64,000 nucleotides of DNA, from the IMG/VR virus record IMGVR_UViG_3300032323_001214, positions 124,001 through 188,000 of that record; one strand, given 5' to 3'. Within the stretch, counting starts at the first letter, position 1; each line of letters begins with the position of its first letter. The stretch is from a virus. The notes below the pieces were generated by a model. That model was not told the origin of the DNA. It saw only the letters and a program-made list of their open reading frames with translations, and did no database searches. Positions 5,601 to 61,326 of this stretch are shown one piece after another. A program made the position numbers and the translations under genes.

Positions 5601-6569
5601 TTACCTGCTCCTAAAATTACAAGTTTAGATGATACTCACGTTAAAGATGCTAGCCAGCAGTTTGACTTCCCCTATGCAATACTTACAACACATGACAATA
5701 CTAATTTACAGGAAGTTGACCATGAACCAATGAGTTTATGGACTCCGGACAGTAAAAACTTAATTATCACCAGTACTGGTGCAACGAGAGTAGTAGTTCC
5801 TCAAGAAGCAAAGAACTATATAGAACGTGAGTTATATGATTACCCATATATAACTAGTTCTAGTAAACTTGCAAAATCTAAGCCACTGGATATAGTCTTC
5901 CTAAGCAACGGTGAAACTGGTGCTGACGAGAACTATGAACACTTACTAAAAGTGACTAAAGGATTATCCAATCGTGTTGTAAGAGTTGATGGAGTTAACG
6001 GTCGTGTTCAAGCCTACCATGCAGCGGCAGAAGCAAGCGAAACACCATGGATGTTTACTGTTTTTGCTAAGTTGCGTATAGATGATAAATTTGATTTTTC
6101 ATGGCAACCCGACAGATTGCAGGTATCAAAACATTATATTTTCAACGCAACTAATCCAGTCAATGGTTTAGTATACGGTCATCAAGCTATGATTGCTTAT
6201 AACAAAAAAATAGTGTTATCTAATAGTGGCAAGGGACTAGACTTCACGTTGGATGATGAGCACGAAGTTGTTGATATTAATTCAGGAATTGCAGTATACA
6301 ACACGGATGAATATATTACATGGAGAACTGCTTTTAGAGAGGCATTGAAATTAAAAAACACTATAGTCAAAAATCCAAATGACAATGCTTCTATTAGCCG
6401 TTTAATGACATGGTCTACCAAAGGTGACGGAAATTATGGGGAATACAGCGTAAAGGGTGCGTTGGATGCGATTGAATACTATGACGAAGTTAACGGTGAC
6501 ATGGATAAACTTAAATTGAGTTACGAATGGGCATGGCTCAAAGATAAATTTTCCTCATCGACTAAATAA
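2637..6569 (+). CDS. Giant repeat protein with GT-A-like segments
   Basis: A 1310-residue protein built from about 14 copies of a module with the core FDFSWxPDPxxPPYIYxFG followed by a GATxxKYI-type element. Copies are near-identical in the first two thirds and diverged later. The last three copies follow Rossmann-like stretches (for example DMFFVDRGNSES and DIVFLSNGETGADENYEHL) and a region ending WILNSELDY or MFTVFAKLRIDD, which resembles the sugar-nucleotide-binding half of GT-A glycosyltransferases. The C-terminus (YNTDEYITWRTAFREALKL, then WAWLKDKF) resembles glycosyltransferase-like proteins I remember from marine phages. No signal peptide or membrane segment is seen. Neighbouring sugar-modification genes support a glycan role. 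A repeat scaffold or virion-surface protein is the alternative. Confidence 0.6.
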   Translation: MLRDVFYYGLKPNAHPREKHAIDLADARQQCTTEHFWIINEHCDYKHFDWDWSFDFLPDEDVWAEEHNNVWPSQYQKDSGTWLCSKEYSEIIIYRADVDPVPLKDEILSNWKIIEYIEKNKFDFKWHPDPSDPPYVYVFGNQWYPGTVMPTVEYHVKGATSRKYITENIAHLLPIPKLFNILHEVESFDYSWRPDPTSPPYIYVFGNTQYPASVMPTIEFHVEGATERKFIENIKPKLVQHPQDFTILDDIDPDSFDFSWVPDPNAPPYIYVWGNQWNKPEDKASIQYAVEGATEYKYMEKRVKRKPSMTNWTIPHQVVRQSFDFSWEPNPNDPPYLYQFGSQWQKTGGPIFTAPGCNTDTEIKYINVISSKRIPDVENKNWKTLLPIAKFDYSWHPDSTEEPYIYVFGNQWNSAELEPTIEYRVPGATQKKYVHDVVAEVAAYEEGWELIEEIHTFDFSWRPNPTDPPYIYVFGTTQYPGTIMPSVKLHKAGATQEKFIDDIVAKLVQKPELFKNTELIKEFDYSWRPNPKDPPFVYQFGTQWAKTHGPQFTVEGALEHKFISEPVATILPDMSYWEIPKDVDTTKFDFSWHPDSTSPPYIYQFGTILDEDDGPKYIVPGNTGIIVKLERPEIILSELDFPKYYLKTTLEDLIEEHEGEIFWALNPELDYSNFDFKWVPDKQNVYHVNAFGSKDNINTQTYFVNGKMWQRGYKDINYIEDKTIDIRTKIDMFFVDRGNSESNERFEKLKEKHSNIIKTRYLNSWVDTINRCIKKSNTNLCWILNSELDYSEFEFDFYPSPWQMRHVHVFGTQWSHWGTTFMVNKNSFADDTKYIKIIEHLSNLNFVKRRTAKASNCLYNIYVIDHKNSHTPDVVKQLESKATGKQVTVVKYDTSYLKTFKEILRSCENKNEHYIWVCASVCDYENFDFTYVCDPFAKEQLHVFPSDKQKFGDTFLIDVNKLRDLISNMSMLEDYEKINYNQHQRAKRLPAPKITSLDDTHVKDASQQFDFPYAILTTHDNTNLQEVDHEPMSLWTPDSKNLIITSTGATRVVVPQEAKNYIERELYDYPYITSSSKLAKSKPLDIVFLSNGETGADENYEHLLKVTKGLSNRVVRVDGVNGRVQAYHAAAEASETPWMFTVFAKLRIDDKFDFSWQPDRLQVSKHYIFNATNPVNGLVYGHQAMIAYNKKIVLSNSGKGLDFTLDDEHEVVDINSGIAVYNTDEYITWRTAFREALKLKNTIVKNPNDNASISRLMTWSTKGDGNYGEYSVKGALDAIEYYDEVNGDMDKLKLSYEWAWLKDKFSSSTK

Positions 6570-7290: not shown

Positions 7291-7319
7291 TTGTAATCAA
7301 CTATGTGTTATAATATAAT
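7291..7319 (+). promoter_or_regulatory. Sigma70 promoter of the permuted tmRNA gene
   Basis: TTGTAA (7291-7296), a 17-base spacer and TATAAT (7314-7319). Transcription would start near 7326, just before the tmRNA acceptor piece. No protein start lies downstream until 7403. Confidence 0.75.
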
Positions 7320-7325
7320 GTAAGT

Positions 7326-7390
7326 TAAGACTGTATGAAGTAGACAGAAAAGGATTCAAGACGCGGGGGCAGTGCCCGCCAGGTCCACCA
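7326..7390 (+). ncRNA. ssrA: tmRNA acceptor piece (3' part, placed first)
   Basis: The segment ends GCCAGGTCCACCA with an encoded CCA at 7388-7390. The 3' acceptor strand CAGGTCC pairs over all seven positions with GGGCCTG at 7764-7770, including a G3-U70 wobble (the alanyl-tRNA synthetase identity element) and discriminator A. The T stem is GCGGG/CCCGC around a 7-base loop GGCAGTG, which departs from the usual TTCGANN. GATTCAA and GACTGT upstream can pair with TTGGGTC and ACAGTC of the coding piece to form the long tmRNA helix. The 5' end is estimated from the promoter. Confidence 0.9.
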
Positions 7391-7402
7391 TAAGGAAATT
7401 TG

Positions 7403-7762
7403 ATGCGTATTAAAGAACTAACCGAGAGTGTGAATATTCCTAGTGTGTTGTATCACGCTACGTACCGTCCATTGCTGAAAAGTATTAGGCAACACGGTTT
7501 AGGCGGAGATAAGGCCCAGGCTAAATGGGAAGATAGCAAGCCCGGTGTAGTCTATCTTGCGTTAGATCCTAACGTTGCGGAAAGTTACGCTGAAACAAGC
7601 GAAGCGGTACCCGACGAATGGTTAGATGAAATCATTATATTGAAGATTTCAACTGCTGGATTGGATCTATCTAAACTCAAGGTAGATGCTAATGTTCTTG
7701 ACAACGAAGGTGATACATTGGAGTATCACGGAGTAATACCCACTAAATTAGTTTCTTTATAA
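7403..7762 (+). CDS. ADP-ribosyltransferase-like capsid-targeted protein inside the tmRNA gene
   Basis: ATG 7403 has AAGGA 7 bases upstream; the in-frame TTG at 7400 is too close. The 119-residue product starts MRIKELTES, matching the T4 internal-protein capsid-targeting type (MKTYQEFIAE) with an LTE cleavage site for a gp21-like prohead protease. The body reads LYHATYRPLLKSIRQHGL, then GVVYLALDPNVAESYA, then LEYHGVIP. These fit the H-Y-E signature of ADP-ribosyltransferase/KptA-like folds (His18, Tyr62, Glu107). By analogy with T4 Alt it could be packaged, injected and modify a host target. The ribosome site begins right after the tmRNA CCA, and the stop lies one base before the 5' end of the tmRNA coding piece. 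The enzymatic role is inference. Confidence 0.75.
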   Translation: MRIKELTESVNIPSVLYHATYRPLLKSIRQHGLGGDKAQAKWEDSKPGVVYLALDPNVAESYAETSEAVPDEWLDEIIILKISTAGLDLSKLKVDANVLDNEGDTLEYHGVIPTKLVSL

Positions 7763-7763
7763 T

Positions 7764-7935
7764 GGGCCTGACACAGGATCGATTGGGTCAAGAGTACGGA
7801 AATGGACAGTCCGGCAATGTAGAAGCCGTTAGGATTGGGGTTACCCGGTCGAAGACACGCAAAAAGTAATCGCAAACGATTCACAATTCCTTCAAGCCGT
7901 TAACGCTTGATAGCGAGGGTGGTACCCTTGTCAAA
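7764..7935 (+). ncRNA. ssrA: tmRNA coding piece (5' part with the tag frame)
   Basis: It begins GGGCCTGACACAGGATCGATTGGG, the tmRNA acceptor strand and D-loop, then carries the hallmark CGCAAAAAGTAATCGCAAACGAT that precedes the resume codon in bacterial tmRNAs. The tag frame ends in tandem stops TGA TAG, with small hairpins CAAGC/GCTTG and AGGGT/ACCCT around and after it. The piece has no 3' tRNA-like half of its own; that half lies upstream at 7326-7390, so the gene is circularly permuted and the mature RNA should have two pieces. The 3' boundary is an estimate. Confidence 0.92.
7872..7913 (+). other. tmRNA tag frame ANDSQFLQAVNA
   Basis: GCA resume codon at 7872, 12 codons, then TGA and TAG. 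The AND start is typical of proteobacterial tags, but the end is AVNA rather than the usual ALAA that ClpXP recognises. With the alanine from the charged tmRNA the appended peptide would be A-ANDSQFLQAVNA. Confidence 0.85.
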
Positions 7936-7940
7936 GAATA

Positions 7941-7976
7941 ACCCAAATAGGAGTGTACGCTCCTATTTGTTTGGGT
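7941..7976. terminator. Strong hairpin between tmRNA and homing endonuclease
   Basis: ACCCAAATAGGAG pairs with CTCCTATTTGTTTGGGT around the loop TGTACG. It ends the tmRNA transcript on the plus strand and overlaps the 3' end of the minus-strand endonuclease gene, so it could work in both directions. No long T tract follows. Confidence 0.6.
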
Positions 7977-8628
7977 ATTCATATGTCCATGTTCCATCAG
8001 GCAAATATTTTCTTTTTCTACCAGTGACCGTCGCTGATTGTTTTCCTGCACTTTTCTTTCCATTCTCAGCCGCAGTTGGATTCGGCAAGCCCTTATTCCA
8101 GGCAGTACGCCCTTTTAATGATTCTCGCAGTTTTAAGTTTGATTTACCCAAAGATTTTTTACCACTACGCACCCCGTTACATTTATGCCCGCATACAAAT
8201 TCTTCTCTTATAGGATGATGACAAAATTCTAATCTAATAAAAACACCATTACAAATGACACATGTATAAGTTCGTTCTTCTTTTGGTTTAGTTTTTGCTT
8301 TTCGATTATATTCAGCTAAATCCTCTCGTTTAGATCCAGACATCGAAAACTTGGACATTGACTTCTGATAATGCCTGTTAAGTAAAAGTGGGTTACCCCA
8401 ATGGTCTTTTATGAGGTTATTTTCAAATTCAAACGCTGATATTTGGTCAACAAAATATGCTAGAATTTCAGAATCATATTCTGAAAAATTGTTTTTAACA
8501 TGCTTAGATGAAGTAAAATAGCAAATACCAAGGTCTTGCTCGGCCACTACTGTATTAGCTGACCTCATTCCTATATAAAATTTTCCTGTCGTGCGATGCT
8601 TCATGATGTAAACATATGGTAAAAACAT
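7963..8628 (-). CDS. GIY-YIG homing endonuclease
   Basis: The 221-residue protein opens with PYVYIMKHRTTGKFYIGMRS, the GIY-YIG catalytic core. A Cys/His cluster follows (CVICNGVF...CHH...CGHKC), probably zinc-binding, then a NUMOD3-like DNA-binding stretch (GRTAWNKGLPNP). Such enzymes cut an allele that lacks the gene and spread by recombination. It lies antisense to its neighbours, has its own late-type promoter (8644-8651) and AAGGA site, and its stop falls in the hairpin right behind the tmRNA coding piece, so the tmRNA locus is the likely homing target. Confidence 0.88.
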   Translation of the reverse strand: MFLPYVYIMKHRTTGKFYIGMRSANTVVAEQDLGICYFTSSKHVKNNFSEYDSEILAYFVDQISAFEFENNLIKDHWGNPLLLNRHYQKSMSKFSMSGSKREDLAEYNRKAKTKPKEERTYTCVICNGVFIRLEFCHHPIREEFVCGHKCNGVRSGKKSLGKSNLKLRESLKGRTAWNKGLPNPTAAENGKKSAGKQSATVTGRKRKYLPDGTWTYEYPNK

Positions 8629-8786: not shown

Positions 8787-8820
8787 CTTGTGTAATACTA
8801 ACACACAAGGAGACTATTAC

Positions 8821-9828
8821 ATGAAAAAACTAACAGCACTATTAGGTGCATTGTTAATATCAACTGTTGCATTCAGTGCAGACATAACAGGTGCAGGTGC
8901 TACCTTCCCATTCCCAATCTATGCCAAGTGGGCAGAAGCCTACAAGAAAGAAACTGGCATTGGGCTTAACTATCAATCAATTGGATCATCCGGCGGCATT
9001 CGTCAAATCAATGCTCGCACAGTGACTTTTGGTGCTACAGACGCTCCAGTCAAGGGCGAAGACTTAGACAAGCAGGGACAGGTGCAGTTTCCTGCTATCA
9101 TCGGCGGAACAGTTCCTGTAGTAAACTTAGATGGTTTTAAACCAGGTGAACTACGCATCACTGGACCAGTTATGGCAGAAGTGTTCTTGGGCACGATCAA
9201 TCGTTGGAATGATCCTAAACTAACAGCATTAAATCCTGGCAAAGCATTGCCAAACGCAGAAATCACAGTGGTGCACCGCGCTGATGGAAGTGGTACAACA
9301 TTTAACTGGACAGACTATCTTGCCACAGTCAGCCCCGAATGGTTACAACGTGCAGGTCGTGGTGCTACAATTAAATGGCCAGCTGCTAGTTCAGTAGGCG
9401 GCAAAGGCAACGAAGGTGTTGCTGCCAACGTGGCCAGAATCAAAGGTAGCATCGGTTATGTAGAGTATGCTTATGTTAAGAAAAACAATATGACTTTTCT
9501 ACAAATACAGAACAAAGCAGGTCGTTGGGTCAGTCCAGATGACTTGACATTTGCCGCAGCCGCTGACGGTGCTGATTGGTTCAGTGTTCCAGGTATGGGA
9601 TTGAGCATTGTGGATCAACGCAATCCCAATGCTTGGCCAGTGAGTTCTGCCAGTTTCATCATCATGTACAAGGATCCTGCTGACAAAAAAGCCAGTCAAG
9701 AAGTGTTGAAGTTTTTTGATTGGGCATTCCGCAACGGCAAGAAAGATGCTATTGATTTAGACTATGTACCATTGCCCGATGCATTGACACGCCAGATCCG
9801 TGAACGTGTTTGGACACAGATCAAATAA
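8821..9828 (+). CDS. pstS: Phosphate ABC transporter substrate-binding protein
   Basis: I start at ATG 8821, which has AAGGAG at a normal distance; an upstream in-frame TTG has none. The 335-residue product has a Sec signal peptide (MKKLTALLGALLISTVAFSA) and the PstS body: GAGATFPFPIYAKW, SIGSSGGIRQI, FGATDAPV and ADGSGTTFNWTDYL, the phosphate-cage segments. PstS binds phosphate in the periplasm and feeds the host PstCAB importer, none of which is encoded here. Phage pstS genes are well known in cyanophages. The Pho box upstream implies that the gene is switched on by the starving host. Confidence 0.96.
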   Translation: MKKLTALLGALLISTVAFSADITGAGATFPFPIYAKWAEAYKKETGIGLNYQSIGSSGGIRQINARTVTFGATDAPVKGEDLDKQGQVQFPAIIGGTVPVVNLDGFKPGELRITGPVMAEVFLGTINRWNDPKLTALNPGKALPNAEITVVHRADGSGTTFNWTDYLATVSPEWLQRAGRGATIKWPAASSVGGKGNEGVAANVARIKGSIGYVEYAYVKKNNMTFLQIQNKAGRWVSPDDLTFAAAADGADWFSVPGMGLSIVDQRNPNAWPVSSASFIIMYKDPADKKASQEVLKFFDWAFRNGKKDAIDLDYVPLPDALTRQIRERVWTQIK

Positions 9829-27594: not shown

Positions 27595-29142
27595 ATGAGT
27601 AACGCACCTTCGTTAGTTAAAAATCCTTATACTAAAACAGTTTTTAAAACTGATAAAGAACTACAGGATTTCATCAAATGCTGTGATCCGGATACAGGTT
27701 ATCTATACTTCATGGATAACTTCTTCTACATACAACACCCTACAAAGGGTAGTATGTTGTATCATCCATGGGATTATCAAAAACGATTGATTGATACATA
27801 TCATAGATATCGCTATTCGATCAGCCTGATGCCTCGTCAATCAGGTAAGTCTACATCAGCCGCAGGATACTTACTTTGGTACGCAATGTTTTGTCCAGAC
27901 AGTACTATCTTAGTTGCCGCACACAAGTATACAGGCGCACAAGAGATTATGCAACGGATACGCTATGCATATGAAAATTGTCCTGACTACATTAAAGCAG
28001 GTGTAACAACATATAATAAAGGCTCACTAGACTTTGAGAACGGCAGTCGTATCGTTTCGGCAACCACTACTGAAAATACTGGTCGTGGTATGTCTATTAC
28101 ACTACTATACCTAGACGAATTTGCATTCGTTCGTCCAAGTATTGCTAAAGAATTCTGGACAGCTATTACACCCACATTGTCAACTGGTGGTAAAGCAATT
28201 ATTACAAGTACCCCAAACAGCGATGAAGATCAGTTTGCGTTCATTTGGAAAAGTGCTAACAAGACAGAAGATGAGTTTGGTAACACTACTGAACTTGGCA
28301 TAAATGGCTTTAGAGCATATAGAGCATATTGGAATGAACAGCCTGGTAGAGATCAAAAGTGGGCTGATGAAATGAAAGCACAGCTTGGTGAGGATCGTTT
28401 CAACCGAGAGATTGGTTGCGAGTTTATTATTGCTGATGAAACATTGATTAATCCAAACACACTAATTCAGTTAGAAGGTATTGAACCTATATCACGCATG
28501 GGTCAAGTACGCTGGTATAAGAAGCCTACAAAGGGCAATATATATTGTGTAGGTCTAGATCCAAGTTTAGGCACGGGTGGTGATCCAGCCGCAATTCAAA
28601 TATTTGAAGCAAACACTACTACACAAATAGGTGAATGGAAACACAATAAAACCGATATCCCTAATCAAATCAAGCTATTAGCTGAAATTAACAAATATAT
28701 AGTAGAATGCACCGGTGAACCCAATAGTATATATTATTCTGTAGAAAACAACAGTATAGGAGAGGCTTCACTTATATCACTCAATGAATACGGAGAAAGT
28801 AATATCCCGGGTTTATTTTTGAGCGAAGCTGGTAAAAAGCGTAAGGGCTTCAATACTACTCAAAAAGTCAAATTAACTGCTTGTGCTAAATTTAAAACAT
28901 TATTAGAGAGCAAAAAAATGAAGATCCATAGTAGGTCTTTAATTAGTGAATTAAAAGCATTTGTTGCTAATGGCGGAAGTTATGCGGCTAAAATAGGCGA
29001 TACTGACGATTTGGTCATGAGTTCATTGTTGGTGATTAGAATGCTACAAACATTAAGCGATTATCACTATAATTTGGAAGAACAGATTAGAGATCACGAT
29101 GAATATATCGCACCCTTACCGTTTTTTGCTGTTATATCCTAA
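27595..29142 (+). CDS. terL: Terminase large subunit (gp17-like)
   Basis: 515 residues. The ATPase domain has Walker A PRQSGKST (80-87), Walker B LLYLDEFAF (about 170-177) and the coupling motif TSTPN. The nuclease domain has GLDPSLGTGGDPAA (metal Asp) and a late DTDDLVMS. It packages DNA into proheads and cuts the concatemer. Similarity in order and size is to T4 gp17, though it is shorter than the 610 residues of T4. No small terminase gene is recognised nearby. Confidence 0.95.
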   Translation: MSNAPSLVKNPYTKTVFKTDKELQDFIKCCDPDTGYLYFMDNFFYIQHPTKGSMLYHPWDYQKRLIDTYHRYRYSISLMPRQSGKSTSAAGYLLWYAMFCPDSTILVAAHKYTGAQEIMQRIRYAYENCPDYIKAGVTTYNKGSLDFENGSRIVSATTTENTGRGMSITLLYLDEFAFVRPSIAKEFWTAITPTLSTGGKAIITSTPNSDEDQFAFIWKSANKTEDEFGNTTELGINGFRAYRAYWNEQPGRDQKWADEMKAQLGEDRFNREIGCEFIIADETLINPNTLIQLEGIEPISRMGQVRWYKKPTKGNIYCVGLDPSLGTGGDPAAIQIFEANTTTQIGEWKHNKTDIPNQIKLLAEINKYIVECTGEPNSIYYSVENNSIGEASLISLNEYGESNIPGLFLSEAGKKRKGFNTTQKVKLTACAKFKTLLESKKMKIHSRSLISELKAFVANGGSYAAKIGDTDDLVMSSLLVIRMLQTLSDYHYNLEEQIRDHDEYIAPLPFFAVIS

Positions 29143-29150
29143 GGAAAAAG

Positions 29151-29158
29151 ATAAATAC
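29151..29158 (+). promoter_or_regulatory. Late-type promoter box
   Basis: ATAAATAC, 3 bases before ATG 29162, so a late transcript would begin at or within the start codon. Confidence 0.6.
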
Positions 29159-29161
29159 ATT

Positions 29162-31459
29162 ATGCCAAAAAGCAACGACTCAATAAACCGTGAATTATTT
29201 GACCTATTAAGCACCCGTGGGTATAGACCTACCATGCTTGATACCTCAGGTAAGGAAATTCCAGTACCGGAAGAAGCTGAAGTCTTTCAATTTAATTTTG
29301 TCAAAGACGATGTAGATTATGGTGTAGTCACTATATCTATTGATGGACTACACAAACTAGTCATATATTTTAATGATAAAATAGCAGATAGCGAAAAAGA
29401 AACATCAGATACTGATGATGTGTCTTGGTATAGGTTGTTAAATCACTTAAAACGTTTTGCAAAAAACCGTCAACTTAGCTTCCAAGTTAAAAATACAGAC
29501 CATTTGAAACATGATATGGCGAAAAGGGATCATATGAAAAAATTAGACGAAGGATATTACCCAATGGGTAAAAATAAGAGTTACAGTGATGCTGTTCCTC
29601 AAGTTAAAATTGTTATCGAACACACTAGAAATATAGTCGAAGGTGAACAACGATATCGCAATGTAGCCCGTATATTTGTAGAAAACACTGACGGAGAGCG
29701 TTTCTTGTTACCTACAACTAAGCCAGGTATCGCTAGAGTTTATGCTAGACACATAGCTGAAGGTGGCACACCATATGATGATAGAGCCAATCATATTACA
29801 TCACTTGTTGAAGAATACAACAAAATGGCAGGATTCGTTCGTGCTACTAGAAACGGTCAATTTAATGAATCTGCACAACGTCTAGTATTAGAGGGTGCAA
29901 ATCACTATACTAAATTACGTGAGACATTAAGTCGTATGGCTGGTAGTAGAGGTTACAATACATATTTTGAAAGTTGGACTCCATCATTGATGGAAGATGA
30001 AATTGAAGAAGCTAACCTGAATGAATTGTTTGTTCAAGAAACACTTGACCCTCGTATTGAAAGTGTAATGCCAATATTATCTAAGTTACAAAAGAACTTA
30101 GGTGAAATGAAAGAAGTTAATGCGTTGGCTGAATGGGCAGATAGTTTGCTTGAGGGCGGTGATGGTGGTGAAGCGAGTGAAGAACCGCCCGAGTCCAAAG
30201 AAGGTGAAACTGCCGAAGACGGTAATGAATCTCCGGAAGATGATTTGTCAGAAGCTGCTGGTGCAGAAACATTAGCACATAATGATGAAACTGAAGAAGG
30301 TAACTTAAAAGCTTTTGACTTAGACGAAGGTATATTAGATACTGTTAAAAAAGTCGGTGGTAAAGTGCTAGACAAACTAGGTCACAGTAGTGATGAAGAT
30401 TTGTTGAAAGACTTGAAAAAGAGAGCAGGCGTCCGTAACCCAGAAACAGGGAAACCAAGTATGGCACAATCTGATGTTGAGAAGCGTGTCGATGAAGTTG
30501 ACATGGGTCAGTATGATGCTCGTAAATCAACTACCAAAGGTGAAACTACTCCGGAACAGGAAAAAAGCTTCCGTGAAAAAGTAAAGCAATATTCTAAAGA
30601 ATTAGAGCAACGTCAAAATAAAAAGCAAGGCATGACAGAAAGCAATTCTTGGGATCGGTTATCAGGTGATACTAGCAATGTAGATCCTGAACATCTGGAA
30701 TATTTACAAAAACAAGCTGAGATTTCAAGAAGAACAGGGTTAGCAGTTGGTGATCGTGTTACCTTAAAAAATAGACCTGGCTTTGAAGGCGAAATAGTAC
30801 ACGATTGGGGCGGTGGAGATTATACTATTTCCGGTGAAGGTGGTGGAATGAAGCAAAGCAATAATCATAGAGCAAATGCAAGGATTATACAAAAAATCCA
30901 AGGCATGGCGGAAGGCGGTGCAAAAGATCGTCAATGGTCTAACAAAGACATGGAGAGGTTGCGTGTTGCCACCCGAGACTTTGATGATATAATGGCATCT
31001 GATGGGCCTGACCAAACCAAACAAGATTTAATCAAGAAGCGAATTCAAACAAAACCCATGGCAGGTCCCAGGGGAGTATTGCCCGAGCAAGGTGTAGCGG
31101 AAGCAGCAACACCAGCCAGTGTCAGCAAAGTATTGAGACTAATACAACGACATAAACCAGAATGGTTTGACAATTATGGCATAGGCGAAGTTGAAGACGT
31201 TGTAGTTGATATGGCAGAAATGGGTCAGTTTCGAGGCACGAGCGATCGGGTCGCCATGGCTCTAGTAGGCCAAGAACTTGAATCAATGTACGGTCAGCAA
31301 GGTATGGCAGAAGGTGAGTTTGCAGGCGACTATGCTACAGGTGAAGCAGGTCAATGGCGTAACAAAGGACCCAAAGCACACAAACCGGCAACAATCGGTG
31401 ATTTAGTTGGTGAAGGCCAAGAAGACTTAAACGCAATAAAGCGTTTATTGGGTAAGTAA
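29162..31459 (+). CDS. Long virion/internal protein with repeated QG(M/V)(A/T)E sites
   Basis: ATG 29162 (MPKSNDSINREL) gives 765 residues. An N-terminal alpha/beta region is followed by a very acidic linker (about 355-395), a region with VGDRVTLKNRPGFEGEIVHDW, and short modules divided by QGMTES, QGMAEG, QGVAEA and QGMAEG. These x-x-E sites resemble T4 prohead-protease sites (Leu/Ile-x-Glu) and suggest cleavage into several internal peptides. The late promoter and position after terL fit a head component. No portal or capsid signature is seen. Confidence 0.6.
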   Translation: MPKSNDSINRELFDLLSTRGYRPTMLDTSGKEIPVPEEAEVFQFNFVKDDVDYGVVTISIDGLHKLVIYFNDKIADSEKETSDTDDVSWYRLLNHLKRFAKNRQLSFQVKNTDHLKHDMAKRDHMKKLDEGYYPMGKNKSYSDAVPQVKIVIEHTRNIVEGEQRYRNVARIFVENTDGERFLLPTTKPGIARVYARHIAEGGTPYDDRANHITSLVEEYNKMAGFVRATRNGQFNESAQRLVLEGANHYTKLRETLSRMAGSRGYNTYFESWTPSLMEDEIEEANLNELFVQETLDPRIESVMPILSKLQKNLGEMKEVNALAEWADSLLEGGDGGEASEEPPESKEGETAEDGNESPEDDLSEAAGAETLAHNDETEEGNLKAFDLDEGILDTVKKVGGKVLDKLGHSSDEDLLKDLKKRAGVRNPETGKPSMAQSDVEKRVDEVDMGQYDARKSTTKGETTPEQEKSFREKVKQYSKELEQRQNKKQGMTESNSWDRLSGDTSNVDPEHLEYLQKQAEISRRTGLAVGDRVTLKNRPGFEGEIVHDWGGGDYTISGEGGGMKQSNNHRANARIIQKIQGMAEGGAKDRQWSNKDMERLRVATRDFDDIMASDGPDQTKQDLIKKRIQTKPMAGPRGVLPEQGVAEAATPASVSKVLRLIQRHKPEWFDNYGIGEVEDVVVDMAEMGQFRGTSDRVAMALVGQELESMYGQQGMAEGEFAGDYATGEAGQWRNKGPKAHKPATIGDLVGEGQEDLNAIKRLLGK

Positions 31460-59852: not shown

Positions 59853-59921
59853 ATAAATACATAATACACTCTTAATTCTGAGAGTTTATGCAGTACCCAC
59901 TGCGTAGCGGCTAGAACCCGC
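59853..59921 (+). promoter_or_regulatory. Late-type promoter box and structured leader
   Basis: ATAAATAC (59853-59860), then hairpins ACTCT/AGAGT (59868-59885), GCAGT/ACTGC (59890-59903) and GCGG/CCGC (59907-59921), followed by AAGGA before ATG 59944. Confidence 0.6.
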
Positions 59922-59943
59922 AATCTATATTAAGGAAAATCAA

Positions 59944-61326
59944 ATGGGACGTCCTCTAAAAATCGCAAAGGCTCAAGCAGTCTTAACAATCACCGGCACT
60001 AATGCTACAACTGAAGAAGTAACTGTTTCACAAAATCTAACAACTTTGGGTGTCATCAAAGGTATGCCATTCGTCACAGCAAGTTCAACTGGTGGCCTAA
60101 TTGCTAACACAACTTACTGGATTTTAAATGTAACAGGTAATAGCACATTTACAGTATCGGCAACAGACTTAAGTGCAAACCCAACATACACTCCAGTTAA
60201 CTTATCCGGAACATCTGGTACATCAGTATCAGCCTCAGTCGGTGTTGTTGATGCTTATTTCAACAATCCAGTAGGTGGTGCAGGTTTCCCAGCAACTAAT
60301 GCTAATACTTATGGTGTAGTTGGTGGTAACACCGCAATCATTGGTAAACAAGTTCTATGTAACGTAGCATTTGGTCAAAATGGTACAGGTACAATTATTG
60401 CAGATACAGCAAGTGACATAGTAGTCGGTGTAGGTACTGACTTTGCAAACGTAGCGGCAGGTACAATTCTGTTTGCTGTATATGACGCCGGTGCTGGCCC
60501 AGCTACATTAGTTGGTACTACATCAGCAACCGGGGGTAATATAACTGTTGCTGTTGCTAACACGCAAAATACAGGTAACATCATTGGTACATCCGGTAAT
60601 GCTCAAACATTAGTAGAAGGTGGTCCAGTTACATTTAGTGCTAACTTAGGTGGCTTAGTGACAGGTACTCAATACTGGGTATTGAACGTTGCTAACGCAA
60701 GTGCATTCACTGTTTCTACTAGACCAGGTGGTGCTGAAGTTGATTTATCAAATGCAACAGGTACTCCAACTGCATCACAACAACAAGTTGTATTGACTGG
60801 TAATGCAGCAAATCCAGCAGTTGGTGTTACTAGTCAAGGTGACCCATTCGTTCAAGCATTACCAGAAGCAGGTTATATCGTTCGTCAGAAGGGTAAGACA
60901 AAGTACTTGGTAACAGGTGCAACTACAGGTATTACTGGTGCAGTATATACAGCTAACGTTGCTAACACTGCATTGACACCAAACACAATGTCTATCATTG
61001 GAACTAATGCGGCTTCAGGTACACAATATATTTCAAGTATCAATGATTACAACAGTGAAGTGTTCCCAGCAACAGTTGCTTCAGGTTCATTAAGTGCTGG
61101 TACTGTTTATACAATTTACAGTGCAGGTACTACAAACTGGACTTCAGTTGGTGCTATGGCTAACATGACAGGCATTACATTCACTGCAACTGGTACTGCT
61201 TCAGGTACAGGTCTTGCTGTATTGGCTAACGTCAATCCTGACATTATTGCTACATTCAACACAGCCGCTGTTGCGAATGCAGCTAATGGTCAGCCGAACC
61301 CAATCGTTACAATTAATGGCGTATAA
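59944..61326 (+). CDS. Repetitive beta-rich virion protein
   Basis: 460 residues with many Gly, Thr, Ala and Val. Two similar units: LIANTTYWILNVTGNSTFTVSA and LVTGTQYWVLNVANASAFTVST. Immunoglobulin- or fibre-like modules. Strong leader structure suggests high late expression. Probably a tail or head surface protein. Confidence 0.7.
   Translation: MGRPLKIAKAQAVLTITGTNATTEEVTVSQNLTTLGVIKGMPFVTASSTGGLIANTTYWILNVTGNSTFTVSATDLSANPTYTPVNLSGTSGTSVSASVGVVDAYFNNPVGGAGFPATNANTYGVVGGNTAIIGKQVLCNVAFGQNGTGTIIADTASDIVVGVGTDFANVAAGTILFAVYDAGAGPATLVGTTSATGGNITVAVANTQNTGNIIGTSGNAQTLVEGGPVTFSANLGGLVTGTQYWVLNVANASAFTVSTRPGGAEVDLSNATGTPTASQQQVVLTGNAANPAVGVTSQGDPFVQALPEAGYIVRQKGKTKYLVTGATTGITGAVYTANVANTALTPNTMSIIGTNAASGTQYISSINDYNSEVFPATVASGSLSAGTVYTIYSAGTTNWTSVGAMANMTGITFTATGTASGTGLAVLANVNPDIIATFNTAAVANAANGQPNPIVTINGV

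Follow-up and report, generated by a model that had tools for sequence, protein, structure and literature searches.

Can the intervening sequence of a circularly permuted tmRNA, so far treated as discarded spacer, serve as the site of a gene? The question is raised by a 64,000-nt stretch of DNA (here called the window) from a 249,606-base virus record, a metagenomic virus contig. A preliminary description of the window, made from its letters, had reported a circularly permuted two-piece tmRNA gene with a complete 119-codon gene between its halves. The check by Rfam covariance models that it had proposed bore this out. The model RF04321 (tmRNA_permuted) matched positions 7329-7910 of the plus strand over its full length (1-213) with 78.8 bits, compared to a gathering cut-off of 47, and the alignment treated the cargo gene as one long insertion. 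The alpha model RF01849 scored 35.2 bits, below its cut-off of 50. The start given previously (7326) lies 3 bases upstream of the model start, which is immaterial. Likewise, the boundaries were as described: within an intervening segment of 373 nt, the ribosome site lies directly after the CCA region, and a single base (T7763) separates the cargo stop codon from the coding half. The two acceptor strands pair across the halves at all seven positions, including G7766-U7384, the G3-U70 pair (Table 1).

Table 1. Features of the permuted tmRNA locus and its flanks, in window coordinates.
Feature	Position	Strand	Details
Sigma-70-like promoter	7291-7319	+	TTGTAA-17-TATAAT; 10/12 consensus matches; consensus match only
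Acceptor half of permuted tmRNA	7329-7390	+	T arm 7363-7379; basis RF04321 match
Acceptor 3' strand and encoded ACCA	7380-7386, 7387-7390	+	CAGGTCC; CCA end at 7390
Extended helix, 5' strand	7391-7399	+	contains the Shine-Dalgarno sequence; pairs 9/9 with 7751-7759
Shine-Dalgarno sequence	7392-7397	+	AAGGAA; starts at second base after CCA
Cargo gene	7403-7762	+	ATG 7403, TAA 7760-7762; 119 codons; KptA/Tpt1-like ADP-ribosyltransferase-fold protein (predicted)
Extended helix, 3' strand	7751-7759	+	cargo-end codons V-S-L; complement of the Shine-Dalgarno sequence
Coding half of tmRNA	7764-7935	+	3' end approximate; RF04321 match to 7910
Acceptor 5' strand	7764-7770	+	GGGCCTG; start of coding half
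Tag reading frame	7872-7910	+	GCA 7872 to TGA 7908-7910, then TAG; ANDSQFLQAVNA and two stops; direct reading
Hairpin	7944-7969		CAAATAGGAG/CTCCTATTTG; after coding half; candidate transcript end
GIY-YIG-type homing endonuclease gene	7963-8628	-	directly after tmRNA, pointing toward it; PHROG 314, E 1.2e-8

A conventional tmRNA elsewhere in the phage, a possibility raised in the preliminary description, was not detected: neither ARAGORN nor cmscan found another tmRNA in the remainder of the 249,606-base record, and the sole RF00023 candidate (19.3 bits, below cut-off) overlapped a tRNA cluster. This remainder carries tRNAs at one end. ARAGORN missed the permuted tmRNA of the window, as did a fast first-look genome search, probably because of the 373-nt insertion. 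SmpB was not found in the phage record, which counts against the bifunctional reading given below; host SmpB would be needed. The acceptor half is 85 to 100% identical to those of related phages, and the coding half is 81 to 87% identical over 140 nt to many of theirs. The 22-nt acceptor sequence had no exact match among 399 Pseudomonadota genomes. A DNA search of INPHARED with the whole locus returned no match, while the acceptor half by itself retrieved Erythrobacter phage XM05, whose permuted tmRNA contains no evident ORF. A freshwater-2 RNA motif (61.9 bits) was also found in the window at 59869-59946 (plus strand), just before a gene at 59944.

As a second viral contig (L006) has the same anatomy, the locus in the window is not a product of chance. 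This contig carries a permuted tmRNA of 101.6 bits, on which the alpha model scored above its cut-off (73 bits), enclosing an ORF 65% identical to that of the window. Between the two cargo genes, pS was 0.74 and pN was 0.22, a substitution pattern showing that purifying selection acts on the window cargo as a protein.

The AlphaFold2 model of the window cargo (pLDDT 80.7) matched KptA/Tpt1 structures in a Foldseek search of the PDB (E 2e-4, probability 1.0). The best 16 PDB matches were all KptA/Tpt1, most with TM scores of 0.55 to 0.59 by query, and the best viral structure match was a putative RNA 2'-phosphotransferase of phage PaBG (E 1.6e-6). The PF01885 (KptA/Tpt1) profile scored 13.7 bits on the window cargo against a cut-off of 26, and all other profile scores were likewise below cut-off. 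Compared with the KptA/Tpt1 RNA 2'-phosphotransferases, the cargo shares the predicted fold but is shorter (119 aa, against about 177 to 180 aa in the matched chains) and has a subthreshold profile score. The motifs LYHAT and EYHG are conserved. On the structural model, the cargo is probably a KptA/Tpt1-fold ADP-ribosyltransferase, perhaps packaged in the phage head.

Relatives of the window cargo were found in ten viral contigs, and only in L006 do they lie inside a tmRNA; the remainder are the domain alone or part of larger proteins. More distant relatives (33 to 38% identity) occur in nine Prevotella Lak phage genomes (H1 to H9), at one place in each. The window and L006 cargos were sisters in only 2% of bootstrap trees, and no branch was well supported. 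These trees do not favor one common entry of the KptA-like gene into the tmRNA but suggest that the tmRNAs of the window and L006 captured it independently. The C-terminal residues SL, which are encoded within the extended helix, were considered as proof that the helix constrains the window protein. This was rejected, as homologs outside tmRNAs also have SL at that place and SL was therefore already present in the protein.

Packaging of the window cargo in the head is plausible from its N terminus, MRIKELTE, which resembles the MRANEFVSE, MRAKEFITE and other N termini found in the same record; KptA-like-domain proteins of other phages begin with MRALEFITE, MRAQEFVTE and the like. The phage record encodes an S77 prohead protease (97.7 bits). 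Internal proteins of the T4 type are a diverse set with only a capsid-targeting sequence in common (PMC3012670), which fits such a role for the cargo. A long protein of the window (29099-31459, plus strand) has repeated QG(V/M)(A/T)E linkers, and similar linkers precede domains, including a KptA-like domain, in L003, L005 and L010. It is possible that these linkers are prohead-protease sites.

Nested genes are not confined to these two phages. Three scans of viral contigs were made: one with an acceptor-half pattern blind to the segment after CCA (set A; at least 113 phage permuted tmRNAs with both halves), one with the acceptor pattern and AAGGA required after CCA (set B; at least 107) and one restricted to the window's own acceptor sequence. 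The pattern of set A was also applied to bacterial genomes (set G; at least 107 permuted tmRNAs). A strict ORF was defined by three criteria: a start codon shortly after CCA with an SD before it, a length of 20 codons or more and a stop close to the segment end. The three viral scans together contained at least 60 ORF-bearing phage permuted tmRNAs with at least 27 unrelated cargo clusters, while strict ORFs were present in 0 of the 107 bacterial permuted tmRNAs of set G among the matches listed. Judged from these contigs, the nested gene is not unique to the window phage, and dozens of other aquatic phages have one. Set A had at least 7 strict ORFs, compared to 0.5 in end-fixed shuffles (maximum, 4 in 200 shuffles), and among its segments no shorter than 75 nt, set B had at least 35, compared to 1.2 in shuffled segments (maximum, 4). 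As set B was chosen for an SD-like word, its ORF fraction is not a frequency. The median intervening length was 78 nt in set A (distinct segments) versus 30 nt in bacteria (set G) among the matches listed (p 7e-18). Permuted tmRNAs scored above the cut-off in 263 of 289 sampled genomes of Alphaproteobacteria and, among the matches listed, were much shorter in span than the window match (582 nt).

Most of the cargos have no known family. One type belongs to DUF2061 (75.7 bits; cut-off, 23.1), and an HNH endonuclease-like frame in L209 fell just under the cut-off and is outside the strict count. In a family of 62 codons, pN/pS was 0.20 to 0.67. The acceptor sequence is identical in L034 and L093 and their coding halves are nearly so, but they contain unrelated cargos, one of the DUF2061 type; in further pairs whose coding halves are 95% or more identical, the cargo was different or was absent in one. 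By these comparisons the cargo gene is mobile, near-identical tmRNA backbones holding unrelated cargos. If the intervening sequence is a recurrent gene site in phages, small phage genes of one class have so far escaped annotation.

The ends of the cargo genes follow a pattern. Among 69 distinct segments with such a frame, the stop codon lies exactly at position -1 relative to the coding half in 33, earlier (mostly at -12) in 15 and within the coding half in 21. Where the stop precedes the coding half (48 distinct segments), the last codons and the stop form part of the helix and boundary in 33, and C termini such as VSL or SF are common to unrelated cargo proteins. Cargo frames without a stop before the coding half occur in L031, L130, L142, L033, L212, L229 and others; in these, a cut by RNase P would leave a non-stop message.

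The helix concerned extends the acceptor stem. In the general register, one strand consists of the nine bases that follow CCA and the other of nine bases separated from the coding half by four more, and the first nine or so post-CCA bases usually include the cargo SD. In set A, 7.2 of 8 positions were paired versus 4.5 with shuffled partners, and other registers gave little or nothing; the values for set B were 7.6 and 6.5. Covariation was strong, reaching 67 two-sided changes in a single pair across the 136 distinct phage sequences, a count of sequences and not of independent events. In unconstrained folds of 20 precursors, the acceptor helix formed with a mean predicted probability of 0.99 and the extended helix with one of 0.93, and the SD region was unpaired with a mean probability of 0.04. 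For the window (7329-7935), the first six extended-helix pairs had a probability of 0.96. Bacterial permuted tmRNAs without ORFs have a weaker extended helix (5.2 versus 3.4 shuffled), so the helix may serve processing only. From its distribution, the extended helix is an older precursor feature, and many phage cargos have merged their SD and last codons into its strands. The pairing of the SD with the ORF end, the recurrence with unrelated cargos and the KptA/Tpt1-like fold with an N terminus like those of other probable head-packaged proteins were all missed in the preliminary description.

The sigma-70-like promoter of the window would start a transcript just before the acceptor half, and TTGACA...TATAAT boxes are present at the same place in relatives from its clade (e.g., L167, L225, L094 and L120). 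A T4-like late promoter sequence, TATAAATA, was found 55 to 140 bases before the CCA end in 51 of 111 cases in set A and 68 of 107 in set B, compared to 0 of 105 bacterial permuted tmRNAs (all among the matches listed); in the next 110 bases upstream it occurred at most once. It is close to TATAAAT, the T4 late-promoter query of PMC9004378. The window and several of its clade relatives have sigma-70-like boxes instead. The hairpin after the coding half is terminator-like on the minus strand, where it follows the convergent endonuclease gene, and has a weak T tail on the plus strand. Exchange of cassettes driven by homing endonucleases was considered as a general cause of cargo differences and rejected, as a relative of the GIY-YIG gene of the window lies just after the tmRNA in L032 only. 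A gene whose translation resembles a PstS-like phosphate-binding protein is also located near the tmRNA (window 8788-9828, plus strand).

From this organization, we infer that the acceptor half, the cargo gene and the coding half would be transcribed as one RNA. As is the standard expectation for permuted tmRNA (PMC3985003), host RNase P would cut at 7763/7764 and a 3' enzyme would cut after the CCA at 7390. These cuts would give two tmRNA pieces and an excised minimal mRNA with its SD at the 5' end and its stop codon one base from the 3' end; the earlier proposal, in which processing would mature the tmRNA and at the same time release or destroy an mRNA, is what the geometry would lead one to expect. 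Until the coding half has been transcribed, a ribosome could load and make the cargo; on arriving at the cargo stop, it would sit over the first bases of the coding half and hold the helix apart. Closure of the acceptor helix would bury the ribosome site and send the RNA on to tmRNA, with cargo synthesis and tmRNA maturation as competing fates of one transcript. We consider it fairly probable, on sequence evidence, that the intervening sequence of this permuted two-piece tmRNA has become a gene site within a bifunctional mRNA/pre-tmRNA in which the two fates compete. If so, one precursor serves for both an mRNA and a structured RNA, with a covarying helix that hides the ribosome site, and it becomes possible to test what phages carry tmRNA for: cargo expression, supply of rescue RNA or both.

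As the SD is paired into the stem that forms the tmRNA, one transcript may choose between message and rescue RNA. The precursor might then act as a switch, in which the helix buries the SD of a swappable cargo, each transcript yields either cargo or tmRNA, and boundary-crossing frames become, on maturation, non-stop mRNAs that the same tmRNA could tag. If true, the boundary-crossing variants (21 distinct segments) would provide feedback comparable to that reported for arfA. We offer this proposal tentatively. In truncated window transcripts without the coding half, the two central G residues of the SD were still predicted to be paired elsewhere, and the released window segment also kept its SD paired in predicted folds. 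A clean open/closed switch of the SD in nascent RNA is not supported by the folds of truncated transcripts, and folding alone is no proof of a switch.

The main rival of competition between cargo synthesis and maturation is compaction without regulatory coupling: the helix would be an old processing element, phages would have filled its loop with small genes to save space, the SD would lie in the helix because a tightly packed gene must start there, and the cargo would be translated cotranscriptionally. The weaker helix of ORF-less bacterial permuted tmRNAs is in line with this reading, as are the several cargos that keep their SD (L057, L085 and L107) and stop outside the helix and the frequent TATAAATA upstream of phage tmRNAs, which is expected for dense late operons. 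However, the merging of last codons and stop into helix and boundary in 33 of 48 distinct segments and the recurrence of C-terminal VSL or SF in unrelated proteins argue against it. Compaction alone is a possible explanation, to which we give less credence than to competition.

A tmRNA in decay, into which an ordinary gene had dropped, is an unlikely explanation of the window. The tag of the window ends in VNA and its 3' part diverges from relatives, while tags ending in AA were found in most phages (76 of 87 readable tags in set B) and in 98 of 98 readable tags of the bacterial set; the score of the window is also lower than that of L006 (78.8 versus 101.6 bits). The VNA end leaves some doubt whether this tmRNA still directs degradation. 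In contrast, the acceptor helix with its G3-U70 pair, the T arm, the open tag frame with a double stop and the extended helix (9/9) are all intact, and the tags of L006 and most ORF-bearing relatives end in AA. A chance open frame or an assembly chimera, which a metagenomic contig could suggest, is highly improbable given the pS and pN values, the homologs in ten viral contigs and Lak phages, the same anatomy in the independent contig L006 and the at least 27 cargo clusters.

The preliminary description knew of no phage case of this kind. This holds in part. Permuted two-piece tmRNAs are already known from aquatic phages: two-piece structures account for 53 of 133 phage tmRNA structures, 50 of them aquatic, in PMC9004378. 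The nested protein gene, its recurrence and the SD-masking helix appear to be new, as full-text searches of the open-licence literature returned no description of a protein gene placed between the halves of a permuted tmRNA. A tmRNA database published in 2025 comprises 11,946 permuted sequences and 79 phage sequences of all forms. Among the contents of permuted intervening sequences it mentions a tRNA-Ala and a repetitive element but no protein gene; the endonuclease genes that it mentions lie in group I introns (PMC11915505).

The permuted tmRNAs of Alphaproteobacteria, Betaproteobacteria and Cyanobacteria (RF04321, RF01849-51) share with the window the order of the halves, the acceptor pairing, the encoded CCA and the tag frame. 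They differ in their intervening sequence (median, 30 nt; ORFs in 0 of 107 among the matches listed), which in the window is 373 nt long and contains a complete gene with its SD in the extended helix. Intron-form tmRNAs with a homing-endonuclease gene (PMC11915505) also have a protein gene in the tmRNA precursor that is removed on maturation. There, however, the gene is in a self-splicing group I intron in the T loop, whereas the window has no intron and its gene occupies the segment that tRNA-processing enzymes would remove. The permuted tmRNA with tRNA-Ala (PMC11915505) likewise has an extra gene in the intervening sequence, but this is a tRNA in one nominally archaeal case, while the phages studied here have recurrent protein genes and one tRNA-Val. 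The latter (anticodon gac; predicted at 6101-6170 of L086) lies wholly within the intervening segment of a phage permuted tmRNA (6043-6188).

Another close known system is that of the Methylophilales phage Melnitz (MZ577095), which has the same phage-borne, alpha-type permuted two-piece tmRNA; the available part of its description (PMC9004378) reports no protein gene in the intervening sequence. Our rereading of this locus (L366, 1488-1940) revealed a 142-nt intervening sequence in which GGAG is followed by an unannotated frame that runs across the mature 5' end, together with a perfect 9-bp extended helix (TAAACACTT/AAGTGTTTA). Melnitz_84, encoded just upstream of the tmRNA, is related to the 62-codon cargo family, whose members lie within the tmRNAs of other phages. 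As a cultured phage thus has a version of the arrangement, experiments on it are possible.
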